Source: Enterococcus mundtii (GTDB lineage Bacteria; Bacillota; Bacilli; Lactobacillales; Enterococcaceae). Taken from it: DNA of 56,621 nt. Below, in pieces: positions 46,856-54,971 of this stretch. The stretch spans positions 1 through 56,621 of the forward strand of contig NZ_AP019813.1 in assembly GCF_013394305.1 (NCBI RefSeq), in the 5' to 3' direction. The notes below the pieces were generated by a model. It made no database searches and was not told the DNA's origin. It saw only the letters and a list, made by a program, of their open reading frames with translations. How positions within the stretch are numbered: position 1 is the stretch's first letter; each line of letters opens with the position of its first letter. A program made the translations under genes and the position numbers.

Positions 46856-47859
46856 TTATCCCACTTCAAGTTCTGTCTCTTTAACGGAAACTGATTTGTT
46901 TTTTTCTTCGACAGCTACTTCCATTGATCGAATCAATTCTGATTTTTGTGTCTGCGTTAAATCTTTAATCGTATCTTTTTCTTTCTCACTCGCTTTAAGT
47001 CCCAACTGATTGCTTAAATCTTTTTAGTTGCGATCGGATATTCAATAAACCAGTTCTTAACATAGACAAAAATAAGGTTGTGAATATTATCAACTTTTTC
47101 TGTTTTTTGCTTTTGATATGCTTTTAGGATTGTTTTATATAATTCATTAGCTGCGTCGATTCCGTAATTCCCTATATCTTCAAAAATAACTACCGTACTA
47201 GTTTCCTTTTCTGCTTTGGCTTTTGCATTGTGAATTGCTTTAACTGTTTTTTGAGCTTCAACAAAATTTGAAGAAAATATTTTTATTAAATGCAATACTT
47301 TTTCAGGAACGAATGTAGCAATACTATTGTCTTTCATGATTGATTCAAAGTTATCTAGCAATAATTGATCTTGTAGCTGGTCTTTTTCTGTGGCTATATT
47401 GTGTCTATTAGTGTCTAAAGAATTATTAGAAGAATAGAATAGATTGTCTGCGATTTCCGCAAATACGGTGGCTTGATTTTGTTCCTCTTCAACAATTTGA
47501 AATACGTCTTCAGTTGTTACTTGCGGTTTTCCTAAATACAAGAGATTAGGAGTACTTTTTATATGTCCATTCTCTTCATGAATTCTACCTTTTTTCTGCT
47601 TTAGAAGACCGACTTCTTCCAATTCTCTTTTTATTTTAGAAACTTTTCCTTCACGACATCTTAAAAACCTCATAAGCTCAGATACTGTAAAAATAAAATA
47701 GATATTATCCTCTTCATCCACCCAATTATTTTTTACAGAATAATCAAAACGATTTTTGAGAAGCATATATGCAATTTTTGAATCATTTGTGAGTTTGAAG
47801 TATTTTTCCCAATATATTTCTTTTAGCTTATAATAAACTCTGACATTTGATACCTCCAC
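46856..47859 (-). pseudogene. repA: RepA_N-family replication initiator, frameshifted near the end
   Basis: The open frame from 47859 gives 281 residues. The N-terminal RepA_N domain is clear: VYYKLKEIYWEKYFKLTNDS, then AYMLLKNRFDYSVKNNW and a winged-helix region with REGKVSKIKRELEEVGLL. It stops at 47014, after ATKKI. In the -1 frame the coding pattern continues (KDLSNQLGLKASEKEK ... VSVKETELEVG) to TAA at 46856. One extra base in the T5 run at 47021-47025 restores 334 residues, the usual size of RepA_N initiators such as that of pAD1. Because Rep is essential, a sequencing error or tolerated truncation is likely. The ArdC-like gene follows after 14 bases. Confidence 0.8.
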
Positions 47860-47999: not shown

Positions 48000-48287
48000 T
48001 TAATCGATATTTTCCTTTTTCTTTTTTGGATTTAATCCTTTTAAAAACTTATCCTCCAAGGCTAATAGTTCATCATAAACACTCCCCATAGACTGCCCTG
48101 ATGATAAACTTAAACAGTACAAAAAATCGCAAGGTAACGTTGCTACAGAACGATTTCGGGTCACCCAACTTGCCACAGTAGACTGTCTATAATCATGAAT
48201 CTCACAAAATTGTTCTACAGTCATCCCTAAGACACCGATAATAAAAACATTGATAGGATAAGGATAAACATAAGTATTGACACTCAT
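48000..48287 (-). CDS. Small probable DNA-binding protein
   Basis: This 95-residue protein contains a helix-turn-helix-like stretch (MTVEQFCEIHDYRQSTVASW, about 22-41) and a basic C-terminus (LNPKKKKEN). GGAGG lies 11 bases before the ATG. It is between the primase-type gene and repA, so it may regulate replication. A hairpin (48312-48338) precedes it. Confidence 0.55.
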   Translation of the reverse strand: MSVNTYVYPYPINVFIIGVLGMTVEQFCEIHDYRQSTVASWVTRNRSVATLPCDFLYCLSLSSGQSMGSVYDELLALEDKFLKGLNPKKKKENID

Positions 48288-48469: not shown

Positions 48470-49936
48470 TCACTTCTTTAAGGGGGGGAAGGTAGCTGAT
48501 ACTTGTTTAAATGTCTCTTCTACCAAGCTCCCGTTTAATTCAAATACCTCTGTGATCCTTGTTGAATAAGCTAATCTGTTTGCTTTTCTTAATTGAATGA
48601 CCTTCAGGAACAACATTTTGACTGAAGCAATGATCATTCCGCCATTTCTTCCTCGTGTTACCTTGTAGAAAACCTTATTCTCCTCCCTTAACTCGGTTAA
48701 GATCTTATCAAGTGTGCGCTTGGGCATCGTGAGTTCTGAAGCCAACTCTTTTTTAGACATATTTAAATAAGGCTCACTAGCATGACTTTTTTCGCTTAGA
48801 TAAGCCAATAGATCTTCTTTCCATTCTTTTTTATGACTATATTTTCTTTGTTCTCTTGGCTTTTTAAATTTCCACCAACCACGACGTTGAATAAACAAAT
48901 CTTTCTCTTGCAGTCCTGCAGAGATCCATTGCTGGCACAGCTCTAAAACAAAATCACGTTGTGCTGCCTGGTAAATTCCAGAATAAGAGCTCATAACGAT
49001 TTTTCTTACTTCCCCTTCAGTCAAAGGTTCATTTAGTCGCTCATTAAACTCGAACATGTTGTATTCACATGTTTCAAGCGCATATCCCGAAGAGAAATAA
49101 GCAAGAGCCAATGTGAAAATCACATTGTTTCGACCTAAACGGCCCTCTCCACCGATAATATCTGCTTTACGTAATAATAGATCGAACCAGGGTTCATCCA
49201 CTTGTCGATACTCTTTTTTCTCAGGGAAAACAACAATTTTAGCTTCTCGTTCCGATTCAGTTTTTTGACTAGAAGCTGTTTTCATTGACCAATTCAACCA
49301 TTCAGAAAATGCGTATTGATAAGCTTCCTCGTAAAAAACTATATTTTTTTTGTTTGGAAAACGGGCAATTCCAAAGTGATTACAGCCCACATCGATTCCA
49401 GGTAATTGCTTTGCTAATTGTTTACGAATCGTTGTAGAAATACGTTTTGCAACTTCAACTACCTTGAAGTTGCTCTTTTTCGTTACGTAAGCTGGGCTAC
49501 TCAATGAAAAATACACTTGGTAACCATGATCAGATTCTAAAATCAATGTTGGCATATAACCAATTTGATCTAAACAAGCAAGGACGATCTCCCCTTCGTG
49601 ATTAACTTTTGTATCGATATCGACAACAAAGGTATTGATTTGGCTTAAATTGTTTTCAGAATGTCCTTTAACGACTGATCGATTCTCGTCAGCATACGTT
49701 CCATATCGATACACATTAGGAGTCCAATGTGTAAGCTTGCTTTCGTTTTCAAGAATCGCTTCTTCAGATGTGATCACCATTCCACGTCCAGCATTCATCA
49801 ACTGTTTCGTACGGTACGCAAAGATAGCACCATTCCTACTAGTATTTTCATACTGAATAGGCTTAATGGTACTATTTCGATATTTATATGTTCGAATACC
49901 ACTTTTCAAAAGCGTTGTATATAAATTAATCAACAT
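48470..49936 (-). CDS. Primase-type replication protein (primase C-terminal domain)
   Basis: This protein of about 488 residues resembles plasmid replication proteins with a primase/polymerase N-terminus and a PriCT-1 C-terminal helix domain. NTFVVDIDTKVNHEGEIVLA carries the paired acidic residues (DxD) of an AEP-type active site, SDHGYQVYFSLSSPAYV and GIDVGCNHFGIARFPNKKN add conserved His and Arg residues, and about 265-340 (EGRLGRNNVIFTLALAYFSS) fits PriCT-1. A winged helix near the C-terminus (SKKELASELTMPKRTLDKIL) may bind DNA. The start at 49936 has GGAAGGACG upstream. It may be a second initiator or a primase for RepA. Its leader is unusually structured. Confidence 0.7.
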   Translation of the reverse strand: MLINLYTTLLKSGIRTYKYRNSTIKPIQYENTSRNGAIFAYRTKQLMNAGRGMVITSEEAILENESKLTHWTPNVYRYGTYADENRSVVKGHSENNLSQINTFVVDIDTKVNHEGEIVLACLDQIGYMPTLILESDHGYQVYFSLSSPAYVTKKSNFKVVEVAKRISTTIRKQLAKQLPGIDVGCNHFGIARFPNKKNIVFYEEAYQYAFSEWLNWSMKTASSQKTESEREAKIVVFPEKKEYRQVDEPWFDLLLRKADIIGGEGRLGRNNVIFTLALAYFSSGYALETCEYNMFEFNERLNEPLTEGEVRKIVMSSYSGIYQAAQRDFVLELCQQWISAGLQEKDLFIQRRGWWKFKKPREQRKYSHKKEWKEDLLAYLSEKSHASEPYLNMSKKELASELTMPKRTLDKILTELREENKVFYKVTRGRNGGMIIASVKMLFLKVIQLRKANRLAYSTRITEVFELNGSLVEETFKQVSATFPPLKK

Positions 49937-50028
49937 CAACTTTACGTCCTTCCCACAAATTAAAAGAGAACACATCGAATATCTGCCGAAACAGATATAC
50001 TATGTGTTCTCTCATTAATGTTGATTAA
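49926..50028 (-). promoter_or_regulatory. Structured leader of the primase-type gene: attenuator and start-masking repeat
   Basis: On the minus strand a long hairpin (AGAGAACACAT at 50002-50012 pairs with 49965-49975, with an inner stem of CAGATAT and its complement) is followed by UUUU, like an intrinsic terminator, 29 bases before the start codon. Just upstream, TTAATCAACAT (complement of 50018-50028) can pair with ATGTTGATTAA (49926-49936), which contains the start codon. A 29-codon frame starts at 50015, runs through the hairpin and ends inside the start region, but has no clear ribosome binding site. Together these suggest attenuation plus translational control. Confidence 0.6.
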
Positions 50029-50066
50029 TATACTCTTAAAAAGCACATCAAATAAACGTTTTTATG

Positions 50067-50249
50067 TTGAGTTGCTCGCCTTTTTTTGTTAGAATAGAGG
50101 CAATCGGAATTGATTTCCGAGTCCTTTTTAATATAAGTAGTTGGTAGCTACTTACATATTCTTGAGACGAGCGTGAACACATGAAGTATGGTCATGTGAT
50201 TCAGAAATAATAGATTTTGGTAGAATCTTTTATTTCCGTCTCTTTTTTT
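50067..50249 (+). ncRNA. Structured small RNA, copy 1, with promoter and terminator
   Basis: A promoter is visible: TTGAGT (50067-50072), 17 bases, TAGAAT (50090-50095). The transcript from about 50102 to 50249 has a hairpin TCGGAA/TTCCGA, a stem around GCTACTT, a stem CACATGA/TCATGTG (50178-50198), a hairpin 50204-50236, and an outer stem GAGACG (50164-50169) with CGTCTC (50237-50242), followed by seven T residues. No open frame fits. Three blocks recur at 50.65-50.76 kb. It is divergent from the primase-type gene and contains GAACACAT, complementary to that gene's attenuator arm. Confidence 0.65.
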
Positions 50250-50334
50250 ATGTAATTTTCTAATATATCGTACCTCATAAATCTTAAATCTGTAAATAAC
50301 AAGTTTAATGGAAAAACAGTTGCTATAAGAAAGA

Positions 50335-50433
50335 ATGCCTAAATATCAACCTTTTCGTAACCTGAATAAGTGGGTTCTAGATGAGGGATATGATTTTCCG
50401 TTAATAGAACATAACTATTGGAACATATTTTAA
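50335..50433 (+). CDS. Very small open frame, possible remnant
   Basis: A 32-codon frame begins MPKYQPFRNLNKWVLDEGYD and ends HNYWNIF. Its composition is protein-like, but the upstream AAGAAAG is only a weak ribosome binding site. It lies between the two structured RNA copies and may be a remnant of a deleted gene. No family recognised. Confidence 0.25.
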   Translation: MPKYQPFRNLNKWVLDEGYDFPLIEHNYWNIF

Positions 50434-50640
50434 TTTTAAAAAAAGGATCTTTCTAGAACACTAAATATATACCTGCTTAAACTCATTATTCTTCTTATAC
50501 AAAAATCTTTTTTTGTGTTCCCTCAATGACTTAGAAAATCATGTTTTCTTTAAACTACATGCCACAATAAGCTTATATATATTGCTAAAAATGATGGAAT
50601 AATTTGTTAGGATTATCAGTTCAAATAGATTATTTAAAAG

Positions 50641-50760
50641 CATCTAGGTGATAACTAGCTACTTACACAATCATGAGACGAGCGTGAACACATAGTTGCT
50701 GTATGTGATTCAGAAGAATAAGTAAGGTCCAACTCACTTATTCTCCCTTCCCTTTTTTCT
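50641..50760 (+). ncRNA. Structured small RNA, copy 2
   Basis: This region repeats three blocks of copy 1: TAGCTACTTACA, TGAGACGAGCGTGAACACAT (50674-50693) and ATGTGATTCAGAA, in the same order and spacing. The hairpin between the second and third block has a different loop but keeps the CACAT/ATGTG stem. A terminator stem GAATAAGT (50716-50723) with ACTTATTC (50736-50743) and a T-run (50753-50758) follow. The promoter is not clear, so it may be transcribed from upstream or be silent. Confidence 0.55.
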
Positions 50761-50844
50761 GCTTTAGGTTTCATAAGTAAGAATATCTGATAACCACTTT
50801 TAGTTCAAGTACTAAATCTACTAAAATATATTACATACTACCTT

Positions 50845-51643
50845 AAGTAGTGATAAACTATTATTATATACTACCTTTATCAAGAATTATATACTACCTT
50901 AAATTTAAATACTTATAATTATATACTACTTTAATTAAACATTATCTACTACCTATTAATCTTAATTTTAATATTATGTACTACTTTTATTAATATTTGT
51001 CTACTACCTTTATTATTAATATATTTAAGGTAGTAGACAAATAGATGTTTATAGTAGTACATGATATACTTTTTTTAAAAAAACAAGTTTAATTACTAGA
51101 ATTTCAGTTTATAAATTATCTACTACCTTATTGCGATTAAATACTACTTTAAATATTATGATTCTCTCATTATATACTACCTAAAATATTTATATTACTT
51201 ACTACCTTTATAATCTATTATTCACTACCTTAATACTATATATGTACTACCCTATGCATTTGTTACATACTACCTTAATTTTTTGTATTTTGTATTAAAT
51301 ACTACCTAAACTACAAATTACTTACTACCATATTAGCCTTTATACCTTCTTTAATTACTACCCACCTATGTGTTTCAAAAAAAGTTTACATTCGTTTCGA
51401 TCTAAATGACTTATGTACATAATAGCTTAAGTAAAAGCAGTACTCTCAAAAAATATTTTTATGCTCATCGAAGTATGGTAGTAAATAATTATAGAATTTA
51501 AAGTAGTACATATTTATATTTTTAAAAATATCATTATATCGGCATCTTCGTAGGTAGTAGTTAATTAAATTTTTTGTAGCACTATTTATGGTAGTATGTT
51601 AATATTATTAAAAAGGTAGTAGATAATGCAAGGAGTGATATAT
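50845..51643. repeat. Centromere-like repeat array upstream of the partition genes
   Basis: About 20 copies of TACTACCTT or its complement AAGGTAGTA (the TAGTARRR repeat of pAD1-type plasmids) are scattered at irregular intervals of about 15-50 bases in a very AT-rich background. Most are in the TACTAC orientation; those closest to the ParA gene (51502-51640) are in the GTAGTA orientation. In pAD1, such repeats flank repB and repC and act in partition. The RepC-like protein at 52575 should bind them. Confidence 0.85.
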
Positions 51644-51644
51644 C

Positions 51645-52562
51645 TTGTCAAAGAAATTCGTCATAGGTAATTTCAAAGGTGGAGTAGGGAAGAGTACATG
51701 TGCGCAAATGTTAGGGTTCGAAGCAGCTGTTGCAAAAAATCAAAAAACTTTAATCGTCGATCTAGATATGCAAGGAAATACTTCTGACGTAATGAGTTTA
51801 ACCCATATGAACTTTTCTGAAGAAGAGGGTGGGGGAGACGGAGAGCCTCTTGATTACGAAAATACAATAACCGATGTACTAATTGGAAAAAAACCTATCG
51901 ATTTAAGTCTTGAATTGGATGGGGAAGTCGACTGGAATAAGATAGTAGATAATGATACTCGAGTTAATCCTAAAGATGCTGTATATAAGGTAGTAGATAA
52001 TTTATATATCTTACCCGCAGATATGAGTTTTGAACTTTACGACGATTGGATCAAAGATCAGTTCTCGGATTCCGCTGATAAGCTTGTTTATATGCAAAAA
52101 AGATTAGGACCGTTACTTGATGAGTTTGACGTTGTATACCTGGACGTACCACCATCAATTTCTATTTATAGTAAGTCTGCGATGTATATAGCTGATTTTG
52201 CGATTGTTGTTCTTCAGACTCAGGTTAAATCGATGAGAAATGCCATGCAGTATTTAGAATATATGGATTTCTTCGTTGACGGGTTTGATACGTCTCTAAA
52301 AGTTGCAGGGGTGATTCCTTTTATGTTAGAGAGTGGAGACGCTGTCGATCAAGAAATGTATGCACAAGCACAACAAATATATGGCGATCATTTGTTGAAG
52401 AATGTTGTATTAAAGAATGCACGCTTAAAGCGATATGACGGATCTGGAATTACGATGGAATTAACTAAAGCAGGAAAACTAAAACAGTGGGATAGACGCT
52501 GTCATCATCTGTTTATCAATATATATGACGAGTTGCTTGAACATGAAGCCTGGTATGAGTAG
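51645..52562 (+). CDS. repB: ParA-type partition ATPase (pAD1 RepB-like)
   Basis: This 305-residue ATPase has the deviant Walker A motif GNFKGGVGKST (residues 8-18), Walker A' (LIVDLDMQGN) and Walker B (DVVYLDVPPS), as in ParA proteins. It uses ATP to move plasmid copies apart with the RepC-like protein. The start is TTG behind AAGGAGTG. Two repeat-like sequences of the centromere type lie inside the gene (TAGTAGATAA at about 51944 and 51992). In pAD1 the equivalent is called RepB. Confidence 0.88.
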   Translation: MSKKFVIGNFKGGVGKSTCAQMLGFEAAVAKNQKTLIVDLDMQGNTSDVMSLTHMNFSEEEGGGDGEPLDYENTITDVLIGKKPIDLSLELDGEVDWNKIVDNDTRVNPKDAVYKVVDNLYILPADMSFELYDDWIKDQFSDSADKLVYMQKRLGPLLDEFDVVYLDVPPSISIYSKSAMYIADFAIVVLQTQVKSMRNAMQYLEYMDFFVDGFDTSLKVAGVIPFMLESGDAVDQEMYAQAQQIYGDHLLKNVVLKNARLKRYDGSGITMELTKAGKLKQWDRRCHHLFINIYDELLEHEAWYE

Positions 52563-52574
52563 GAGGTCACTTAA

Positions 52575-53189
52575 ATGGCTGATATAAAAGATCTAGGTAT
52601 TTTCAAAAATAATAAGGGGCTAGATAAAATTAGAGCAGGTACCTCAACTAAAAAAAATAAAAAAAAAATAAAATCTGAAACTCAATCTAAAGATACAGAG
52701 AAAAATATAGAAGTAGTAGAAACCAATCATACCAAGGAATCTATTCAAAAATCTCAGATAACCCCTACTAAAAGTACGGAAAAGAAAGCTATTCAATCTA
52801 AGAAAAAATCCGATGCATCAAAGAAGGTAAAAGGGGTAGGGGCTCCAGTAAGAAAATTCGATCGTTCTTTTTCTGCACAAATGCCTTTAAAACTATCGCC
52901 TATTTTAAACGCAACCTCTAGAGTCATGGTTGAAAAATATGAAACTAACTTAACTAGAGACGAGTTATTGAGAAAAGCTCTTGATGAATACATCAAACAA
53001 CATCTAACTCAAGAAGATAAACAAGACCTTTTTAATAATGTTATGAGAGAAGTAGAAATGTTCAGAAAGAAAAAACCTACTATTCCTGAAACTGATATAG
53101 ATGGTACTGTGATTCGAACAGTTGATGAAATCGAGGCAGAAACTAATACAATTATACGTAACAACTGGGGAATGAATTATAAACACTAA
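52575..53189 (+). CDS. repC: Partition DNA-binding protein (pAD1 RepC-like)
   Basis: This 204-residue protein has a Lys-rich disordered N-terminal half (about 20-95, with TKKNKKKIKSETQSKDTEKN) and a C-terminal part (about 105-204) that likely holds a ribbon-helix-helix-like DNA-binding domain (TRVMVEKYETNLTRDELLRK). It follows the ParA gene by 12 bases with an AGGAGG site. It should bind the TAGTARRR repeats on both sides and recruit the ATPase. Assignment to the RepC group rests on context and layout more than on a clear motif. Confidence 0.75.
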   Translation: MADIKDLGIFKNNKGLDKIRAGTSTKKNKKKIKSETQSKDTEKNIEVVETNHTKESIQKSQITPTKSTEKKAIQSKKKSDASKKVKGVGAPVRKFDRSFSAQMPLKLSPILNATSRVMVEKYETNLTRDELLRKALDEYIKQHLTQEDKQDLFNNVMREVEMFRKKKPTIPETDIDGTVIRTVDEIEAETNTIIRNNWGMNYKH

Positions 53190-53411: not shown

Positions 53412-53885
53412 ATGTCAGAAATTCATTATGGACGTGGTTATGTCTATTCTATTCAATATCATCTTGTTTGGTGTGTAAAATATCGACATGATGTTTTGTA
53501 TGGTCAGGTAGATATTGATGTCAAACAGTTTTTGAAACAAATTGCTGATGATAATAATATAAAAATTATGGAAATAGAATCAGATAAAAACCATATTCAT
53601 TTACTCATTGAATGCACCCCACAACACTATATTCCTAGTATTGTTAAAGCATTTAAAGGCGTATCCGCTAGACTGCTGTTTAAAAAACATCCTGAACTTA
53701 AACAACTCCTTTGGGGTGAACATCTTTGGAATCCATGCTACTTTGTAGCTACTGTTAGCGAAAATACAGAAGAACAAATTAGAAAATATATACAAAATCA
53801 GAAAAAGAAAAGAGGTGAATCCGTATGCTACAACATAGGGCTTATAAATTTAGAATCTATCCTAATCAAGAACAAGAAATATTAA
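53412..53885 (+). CDS. tnpA: IS200/IS605 transposase TnpA
   Basis: This 157-residue Y1 transposase has the HUH metal motif in DKNHIHLLIE (about 57-66) and the catalytic Tyr in EEQIRKYIQNQKK (about 119-131), and begins with the typical YSIQYHLVWCVKYRHDVL. It cuts and joins single-stranded element ends. It seems intact. The tnpB frame starts 60 bases before its stop. Confidence 0.92.
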   Translation: MSEIHYGRGYVYSIQYHLVWCVKYRHDVLYGQVDIDVKQFLKQIADDNNIKIMEIESDKNHIHLLIECTPQHYIPSIVKAFKGVSARLLFKKHPELKQLLWGEHLWNPCYFVATVSENTEEQIRKYIQNQKKKRGESVCYNIGLINLESILIKNKKY

Positions 53886-54971
53886 TGACTAAAACTATTG
53901 GCTGTTCAAGATTTGTCTATAATTATTTTTTGAATTTGTGGAATCATGAATATACGACTATTGGAAAAGGATTATCTTATAATTCTTGTTCTGCCATGCT
54001 TCCACAAATGAAAAGAAATGCAGAGACAATTTGGTTAAAAGAAGTTGACAGCATTGCGATTTAATCCTCATTGAAAAATCTTTATGATGCTTTTTCTTGC
54101 TTCTTTAAAAAACAAAATAAACGACCACAATTTAAAAGTAAAAAACATCCTATACAAAGTTATACAACTAAAAATACGAATAATAGTATCGTAATTAGAA
54201 ATAATTTCGTAAAACTACCTAAGTTAGGACTTGTTAAATTTGCGAAAAGTCAAGAGCCCAAAGGGCGAATATTAAATGCTACGATTCGAAAAAATTCGAG
54301 TGGTAAATTTTTTGTTTCTATCCTGTGTGAAGAAGAAATATTTGAGTTTCCTAAATCTAATTTCGCTATTAGAATTGATCTTGGTATAACTGATTTTGCA
54401 ATCCTTTCTGATGGTGAAAAGATTGATAACAATAAATTTACGTCAAAAATGGCAAAAAAACTCAAACGTGAACAACGTAAGTTATCAAGACGTGCAATTA
54501 TTAGTTAAAAAGAAAGGTATCAATCTCTTTGAAGCCAAGAACTACCAAAAACAAAAACGAAAAGTAGCACGACTACATGAAAAAGTAATGAATCAACGCA
54601 ATGACTTTTTAAATAAGTTGAGCACAGAGATTATCAAAAACCACGATATTATCTGTATCGAAAACTTAAATACAAAAGGTATGTTGCGTAATCATAAACT
54701 AGCAAAAAGTATTTCGGATGTTTCATGGTGTAGTTTTGTGACTAAGTTACAATACAAAGCTGACTGGTACGGTCGGAAAATCATCAAAGTAGATAAATGG
54801 TTTCCATCTAGTCAAATCTGTTCAAATTGTGGACACAAAGACGGCAAGAAATCTCTAGAAATTCGAGAATGGACTTGTCCTGTTTGTCATGCTCGTCATG
54901 ACCGAGATATCAATGCTAGTATCAATATTCTGACCGAAGGTCTAAGATTACATTCCATGGGATTAGCTTAA
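53825..54971 (+). pseudogene. tnpB: TnpB nuclease gene, broken by a stop and a frameshift
   Basis: The TnpB reading frame starts well (MLQHRAYKFRIYPNQEQEIL) but meets TAA at 54062-54064 where Gln is expected (DSIAI then SSLKNLYDAF). It continues to a one-base insertion near 54500 (RKLSRRA, then LLVKKKGINLFEAKNY in another frame). The later part keeps RuvC motifs (RIDLGI, IICIENLNTKG, RHDRDINAS) and the zinc finger (CSNCGH ... CPVCHA). TnpB is an RNA-guided nuclease that favours retention of the element; this copy should be inactive. Confidence 0.9.

Follow-up and report, generated by a model that had tools for sequence, protein, structure and literature searches.

Among the known systems closest to the locus studied here are replication regions in which an antisense RNA acts on the leader of an initiator gene. 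In plasmid pIP501, a leader region of 329 bp lies between copR and repR, and a 136-nt antisense RNA termed RNAIII induces transcriptional attenuation, with CopR called non-essential (as set out in part of PMC4981023). Staphylococcal plasmids encoding a PriCT_1 initiator contain the same elements and a leader of ~320 nt, according to a part of PMC5703833. Here, we analyze two related candidate RNAs beside a replication gene in a 56,621-nucleotide stretch of Enterococcus mundtii DNA (henceforth termed the window), which lies on contig C4 of a four-contig genome. The RNA nearer to the gene, copy 1, very probably acts as an antisense brake on the replication gene of an Inc18-like plasmid, i.e., copy-number control of a known kind. 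With high confidence, we read copy 1 as an antisense RNA of the RNAIII type that belongs to an Inc18-like replicon with a PriCT_1 initiator, and copy 2 as a decaying equivalent that stems from a replaced replicon.

The two copies share a 38-nt direct repeat at 92% identity (50145-50182 and 50656-50693) and, in the same order, an exact 13-nt repeat (50194-50206 and 50703-50715); they have the same orientation and a spacing of 511 bp. The recurring blocks of 12, 20 and 13 bases that an initial annotation had singled out all fall inside these repeats. That annotation had also placed the RNAs beside a "primase-type" gene: the location in a replication region holds, and the gene can now be named as encoding a PriCT_1 Rep initiator, for which an NCBIfam search returned no match at E 0.001. 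The rep side of the locus comprises the following features.

48000-48287, minus strand: homologue of PrgN, encoded downstream of rep (53% identity across 83 aa with a pRE25 protein annotated PrgN)
48470-49936, minus strand: rep, PriCT_1 initiator of 488 aa (Pfam PF08708), start codon ATG at 49936 (by alignment)
49937-50260, minus strand: predicted rep mRNA leader (RNAII), ~324 nt given an mRNA start near 50260
49962-50012, minus strand: putative attenuator AGAGAACACAT...ATGTGTTCTCT, ending in no more than four T ahead of the rep ribosome-binding site (inverted repeat, fold and alignment; unflagged by a terminator scan)
50067-50095, plus strand: candidate antisense promoter pIII of copy 1, TTGAGT-17 nt-TAGAAT (promoter scan; loose-pattern match in 23/23 leaders)
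50102-50249, plus strand: copy 1, predicted RNAIII-type antisense RNA of ~148 nt (fold, alignment, covariation and covariance model R1)
50104-50120, 50134-50154, 50174-50203 and 50204-50236, plus strand: hairpins L1, L2, L3 and L4 of copy 1
50164-50169 with 50237-50242, plus strand: outer stem of copy 1, followed by a T-run
50175-50182, minus strand: putative antiterminator of the leader, ATGTGTTC, complementary to GAACACAT of copy 1 (alignment and pairing calculation)
50267-50296, minus strand: candidate sense promoter pII, TTTACA-18 nt-TACGAT (9 of 12 matches; partly conserved in the leader alignment)

The promoter initially proposed for copy 1 was recovered by the scan as TTGAGT-17-TAGAAT, and a loose version of it (TTGA[AG][TC], 16-18 nt, T[AG]....) precedes the GAGACGA core by 85-118 nt in 23/23 distinct homologous leaders. 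The scan gave three promoter-like sites against a shuffle mean of 6.8, i.e., such sites are rarer here than in shuffles. Judged from the promoter position, the RNA would start at 50102. Compared with shuffled sequences, its fold reached z = -4.12 (50102-50249) and z = -3.45 (50115-50250), and GAGACG pairs with CGTCTC to enclose L3 and L4 immediately before a T-run, which bears out the structure and outer stem described for copy 1. The suggestion that each copy ends in a terminator of its own fared less evenly. The closing stem of copy 1 abuts the T-run, whereas the hairpin of copy 2 is set off by CCCTTCCC, and a scan for terminator-like sites across 49800-50900 flagged neither the end of copy 1, nor copy 2, nor the attenuator; the single flagged site consists of L1 of copy 1 and TCCTTTTTA (50104-50129). 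Since the T-run of the attenuator is short and unflagged and L1 is flagged instead, copy 1 may end early, near 50129. Rfam gave 0 matches within the window at the gathering score, in agreement with the earlier remark that no Rfam family was recognizable.

An alignment of 18 RNAs contains changes on both sides of the pair in 5/30 base pairs, of which four belong to L4 and one to L2. Neither the outer stem nor that of L3 varies at all, and both hence yield no covariation evidence. With both-sided changes confined to L2 and L4, covariation backs the structure in part only, so that the conserved covariation to which the initial annotation had tied its structural claim is seen in these two hairpins and not in the invariant stems. 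Its statement that loops vary while stems are kept applies to L3, where a variable loop sits on a stem that is invariant in 18/18 aligned RNAs.

From these 18 sequences, copy 1 of the window among them, we built a covariance model, R1. It scores 127.7 bits on copy 1, itself one of the 18 model sequences, and 99.1 bits on copy 2, and these two are its only matches in the window's own genome. Under stricter filters, R1 matches occur in 27/396 genomes of the order; the two weakest genomes (G081 and G089) were left out of the follow-up. A blastn search with copy 1 at E 0.01 matched 535/72,556 plasmid records, 528 of them from Enterococcus. At the level of genomes, a similarity search at E 0.01 gave matches in 32/106, nine of them only via stretches of ~20-35 nt; in seven of these nine (L031-L037) the loci lack rep and were dropped as chance matches. 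An exact 19-mer scan of genome contigs returned four stretches, two of which, in an Acetobacteraceae MAG (L005) and in Microvirga (L007), have neither rep nor an R1 match up to E 10 and were likewise set down to chance. No description of the RNA of the pRE25-like branch was found in open-licence literature as listed.

Across homologous loci the RNA keeps its distance from rep. Among 27 loci examined, the nearest GAGACGA core lies 216-243 bp upstream of the rep start in 25/25 loci that have both (L002 is without rep and pAMbeta1 without the motif), with rep starts extrapolated from tblastn. In a second set, which overlaps the first and comprises three plasmid records and 20 loci returned for 33 R1 matches, the distance is 210-239 bp in 23/23 loci, with Rep identities reaching down to 38.8%. 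The antisense promoter inside the rep leader is conserved as a pattern, while the leader length of ~320 nt depends on a weak sense-promoter match: going by pII, the rep mRNA would start near 50260. If so, the leader holds the complete complement of copy 1.

The sequences themselves show the anatomy of the locus, its conservation, the link to rep and the potential for pairing. These elements suggest a mechanism in which transcripts, RNA binding and attenuation are carried over by analogy from pIP501. The rep mRNA would run on the minus strand from about 50260 to rep, and RNAIII, transcribed on the plus strand from pIII (50067-50095), would be complementary to the first part of the rep leader. 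When RNAIII is scarce, ATGTGTTC in the leader (50182-50175) would pair with GAACACAT of the attenuator 5' arm, the terminator could not form in time, and rep would be transcribed. When the plasmid is abundant, RNAIII would bind the leader and mask ATGTGTTC, allowing the terminator (50012-49962) to form and transcription to halt before rep.

The sequence elements that this switch would use are widely kept. TGTGTTC is present in the RNAIII target of the mRNA in 23/23 distinct leaders, and GAGAACACA serves as the attenuator 5' arm in 21/23, L012 and L023 differing by one base. At least eight Watson-Crick matches to the terminator arm are found in 20/23 leaders, with six in L012, seven in L013 and five in L023; the 8-nt match of the window was reached by 5/100 shuffled targets and is weak on its own. 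When leaders were cut before the terminator 3' arm, the antiterminator pairing formed with a mean probability of 0.50-1.00 in 23/23 (0.93 in the window). In complete leaders the terminator dominates (probability 0.50-1.00). Blocking the RNAIII target raised the terminator probability by at least 0.03 in 15/23 leaders and left it unchanged in five. For the full window leader at equilibrium, it is 0.99, and 1.00 with the target blocked. As the full leader favors the terminator at equilibrium with or without the block, any switch would need to work kinetically.

The initial annotation had proposed another possible reading of the locus, in which a separate RNA acts in trans to control copy number, with GAACACAT pairing to an arm of the attenuator that precedes the primase-type gene. 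The match behind this proposal is present in the sequence: GAACACAT, common to both copies, is complementary to the attenuator 3' arm. Pairing with that arm, however, would counter termination, not cause it. The RNA also sits at a fixed position, 210-243 bp upstream of rep, and full complementarity to the leader, given an mRNA start near 50260, makes cis pairing far stronger. Because fixed position and full complementarity together favor cis antisense pairing, we regard a separate trans-acting RNA as very improbable. What stands of the proposal is antisense control of copy number, which is the best reading of copy 1. This would be a cis-encoded RNA, antisense from end to end to the rep leader, and the common GAACACAT is more readily understood as complementary to an antiterminator than as a site for pairing with the attenuator.

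Copy 2 lies on the far side of an apparent recombination junction, in a part of the window with the following features.

50443-50498, no strand: junction between an E. mundtii-type rep module and a pEG81-1/pEIDB1-type par module
50499-50602, minus strand: apparent relic of copy 2's rep leader, one attenuator arm missing
about 50603-50759, plus strand: copy 2, apparent relic RNAIII of a second replicon, with core 50656-50715 and hairpin 50715-50744 (R1, lesions and identity to the pEIDB1 RNA)
51645-52562 and 52575-53189, plus strand: ParA and its partner protein, of the copy 2 lineage (identity to pEIDB1/pEG81-1)

DNA homology to the E. mundtii plasmid pP6-6 stops at 50442, and homology to E. 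gallinarum pEG81-1 begins at 50499. The encoded proteins divide in the same manner: compared with pP6-6, Rep is 96.7% and PrgN 98.9% identical and ParA 22%, and compared with pEIDB1 and pEG81-1, ParA is 94.4% identical to both, its partner 74.3% and 72.9%, and Rep 52-53%. In pEIDB1 and pEG81-1, an RNA of the same kind sits between rep and parA, and copy 2 shares 79.5% identity with the pEIDB1 RNA versus 63.6% with copy 1. E. mundtii plasmids carry an HTH gene directly past the junction. Copy 2 appears to be a decaying remnant of a replication module that recombination exchanged for another. A tandem duplication within one plasmid would account for two copies in the same orientation 511 bp apart, yet copy 2 and the DNA beyond it match pEG81-1/pEIDB1 while similarity to E. 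mundtii plasmids extends as far as 50442, and a tree of 23 RNAs puts the copies apart, with copy 2 outside the copy 1 clade (split support 0.96; its exact place, with L030, is poorly supported at 0.66). Duplication as the origin of the pair is scarcely credible to us.

Twenty plasmid records match the region between the copies, one of them, pEfm12493 (KP342511), over at least 80%; it is also the one record among 72,556 that contains the whole of the inter-copy DNA. The chimera and the missing attenuator arm are common to the window and pEfm12493. Their copy 2 regions are 98.9% identical, so that decay is inferred from few changes. The initial annotation had described two related structured RNAs in tandem. 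Copy 2 could be a second functional antisense RNA, for instance an incompatibility determinant against plasmids with the replaced replicon; its R1 score is still 99.1 bits, and a promoter-like TTGAAA-17-TGGAAT can be seen by eye ahead of it in pEfm12493. Against this, the pIII of copy 2 has lost 10 nt after 50584 in the window (a deletion absent from pEfm12493), a scan found no plus-strand promoter before copy 2, one attenuator arm of its leader is gone, and its fold does not stand out from shuffles (z = -0.53 and -1.00), with the outer stem unformed. In pEfm12493, a base of the L3 stem that the window keeps is deleted. We consider a working copy 2 unlikely, and the structure described for both RNAs is not confirmed for it; instead, it resembles the relic of a second, replaced replicon. 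Decidedly unlikely is also the idea that the chimera retained the antisense RNA of its displaced replicon in order to signal in trans against plasmids from the former incompatibility group. If true, replicon swapping can leave one plasmid with two incompatibility specificities.

Several further observations concern the surroundings. Compared with the window, copy 1 of pEfm12493 (L038, 3598-3640) has an L3 loop enlarged by an 8-nt insertion, which might change incompatibility specificity. Many TACTACC-type repeats, noticed by eye on both strands at 50830-51640, extend from copy 2 to parA and probably serve the ParA system as its partition site. A RepA_N initiator (PF06970) is encoded at 47014-47859, on the downstream side of rep and PrgN; with this initiator besides rep, one plasmid may contain two replicons. 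ORFs at 53412-54971 look like an IS200/IS605-type element, one of them being short and similar to a transposase, while a TnpB-like gene is spread over several frames.

The preferred reading, a cis-encoded RNAIII-type RNA next to the remains of another, assigns an RNA found in 535/72,556 plasmid records and without an Rfam match to a well-studied kind of copy control, and with R1 a covariance model for it now exists. It further suggests that remnants of control regions can preserve a record of replicons exchanged between lineages of plasmids. Overall, the RNA represents a known kind of copy-control system, that of pIP501 RNAIII, in a branch without an Rfam match and beside the probable fossil of a replaced one.

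Among known systems, the locus is most like pIP501 RNAIII and the corresponding region of pAMbeta1 (Inc18), with which it shares the position in the leader of a PriCT_1 rep gene, a similar length, the hairpin layout, the attenuator and a possible antiterminator pairing. For pIP501 this likeness draws on the published description in part of PMC4981023, i.e., 329 bp and 136 nt for leader and RNA, compared with predicted sizes of ~324 and ~148 nt in the window. The candidate RNA of pAMbeta1 folds into the same hairpin layout as copy 1, and once its leader is truncated, GATTGC is paired with the attenuator sequence GCAATC; R1 gave no match to the pAMbeta1 RNA, i.e., the model detects no similarity in sequence. 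The window Rep is 50.7% identical to that of pAMbeta1; its identity to the Rep of pRE25, which is typed as an Inc18 plasmid, is 76.8% over 488 aa. Immediately upstream of its own rep, spanning the origin of the record, pRE25 has a counterpart of the copy 1 region (87.1% identical), with a different ParA adjoining the RNA and, unlike the window, one RNA copy among the blast matches listed. A tblastn search for CopR homologues gave no convincing match in the window with pAMbeta1 CopF, an HTH protein of pLDW-8 (without detectable similarity to CopF) and a hypothetical protein of pDO2, the best hit being at E 0.19 and elsewhere. The origin box TGCCATTACATTTAT, exact in pAMbeta1 only, is absent downstream of rep in the window, where two distant matches with three mismatches are at chance level; it is also missing from the first 4 kb of the pRE25 record. 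As neither a CopR gene nor the pAMbeta1 origin box was found, we do not file the window as Inc18 proper. A further parallel is pT181, a rolling-circle replicon with an unrelated initiator. Its antisense RNA follows the transcriptional attenuation logic proposed here (in part of PMC5703833). With a PriCT_1 Rep, a conserved candidate antisense promoter, a putative attenuator and a possible antiterminator, the window is assigned, at the level of sequence, to the PriCT_1 kind of antisense attenuation system.
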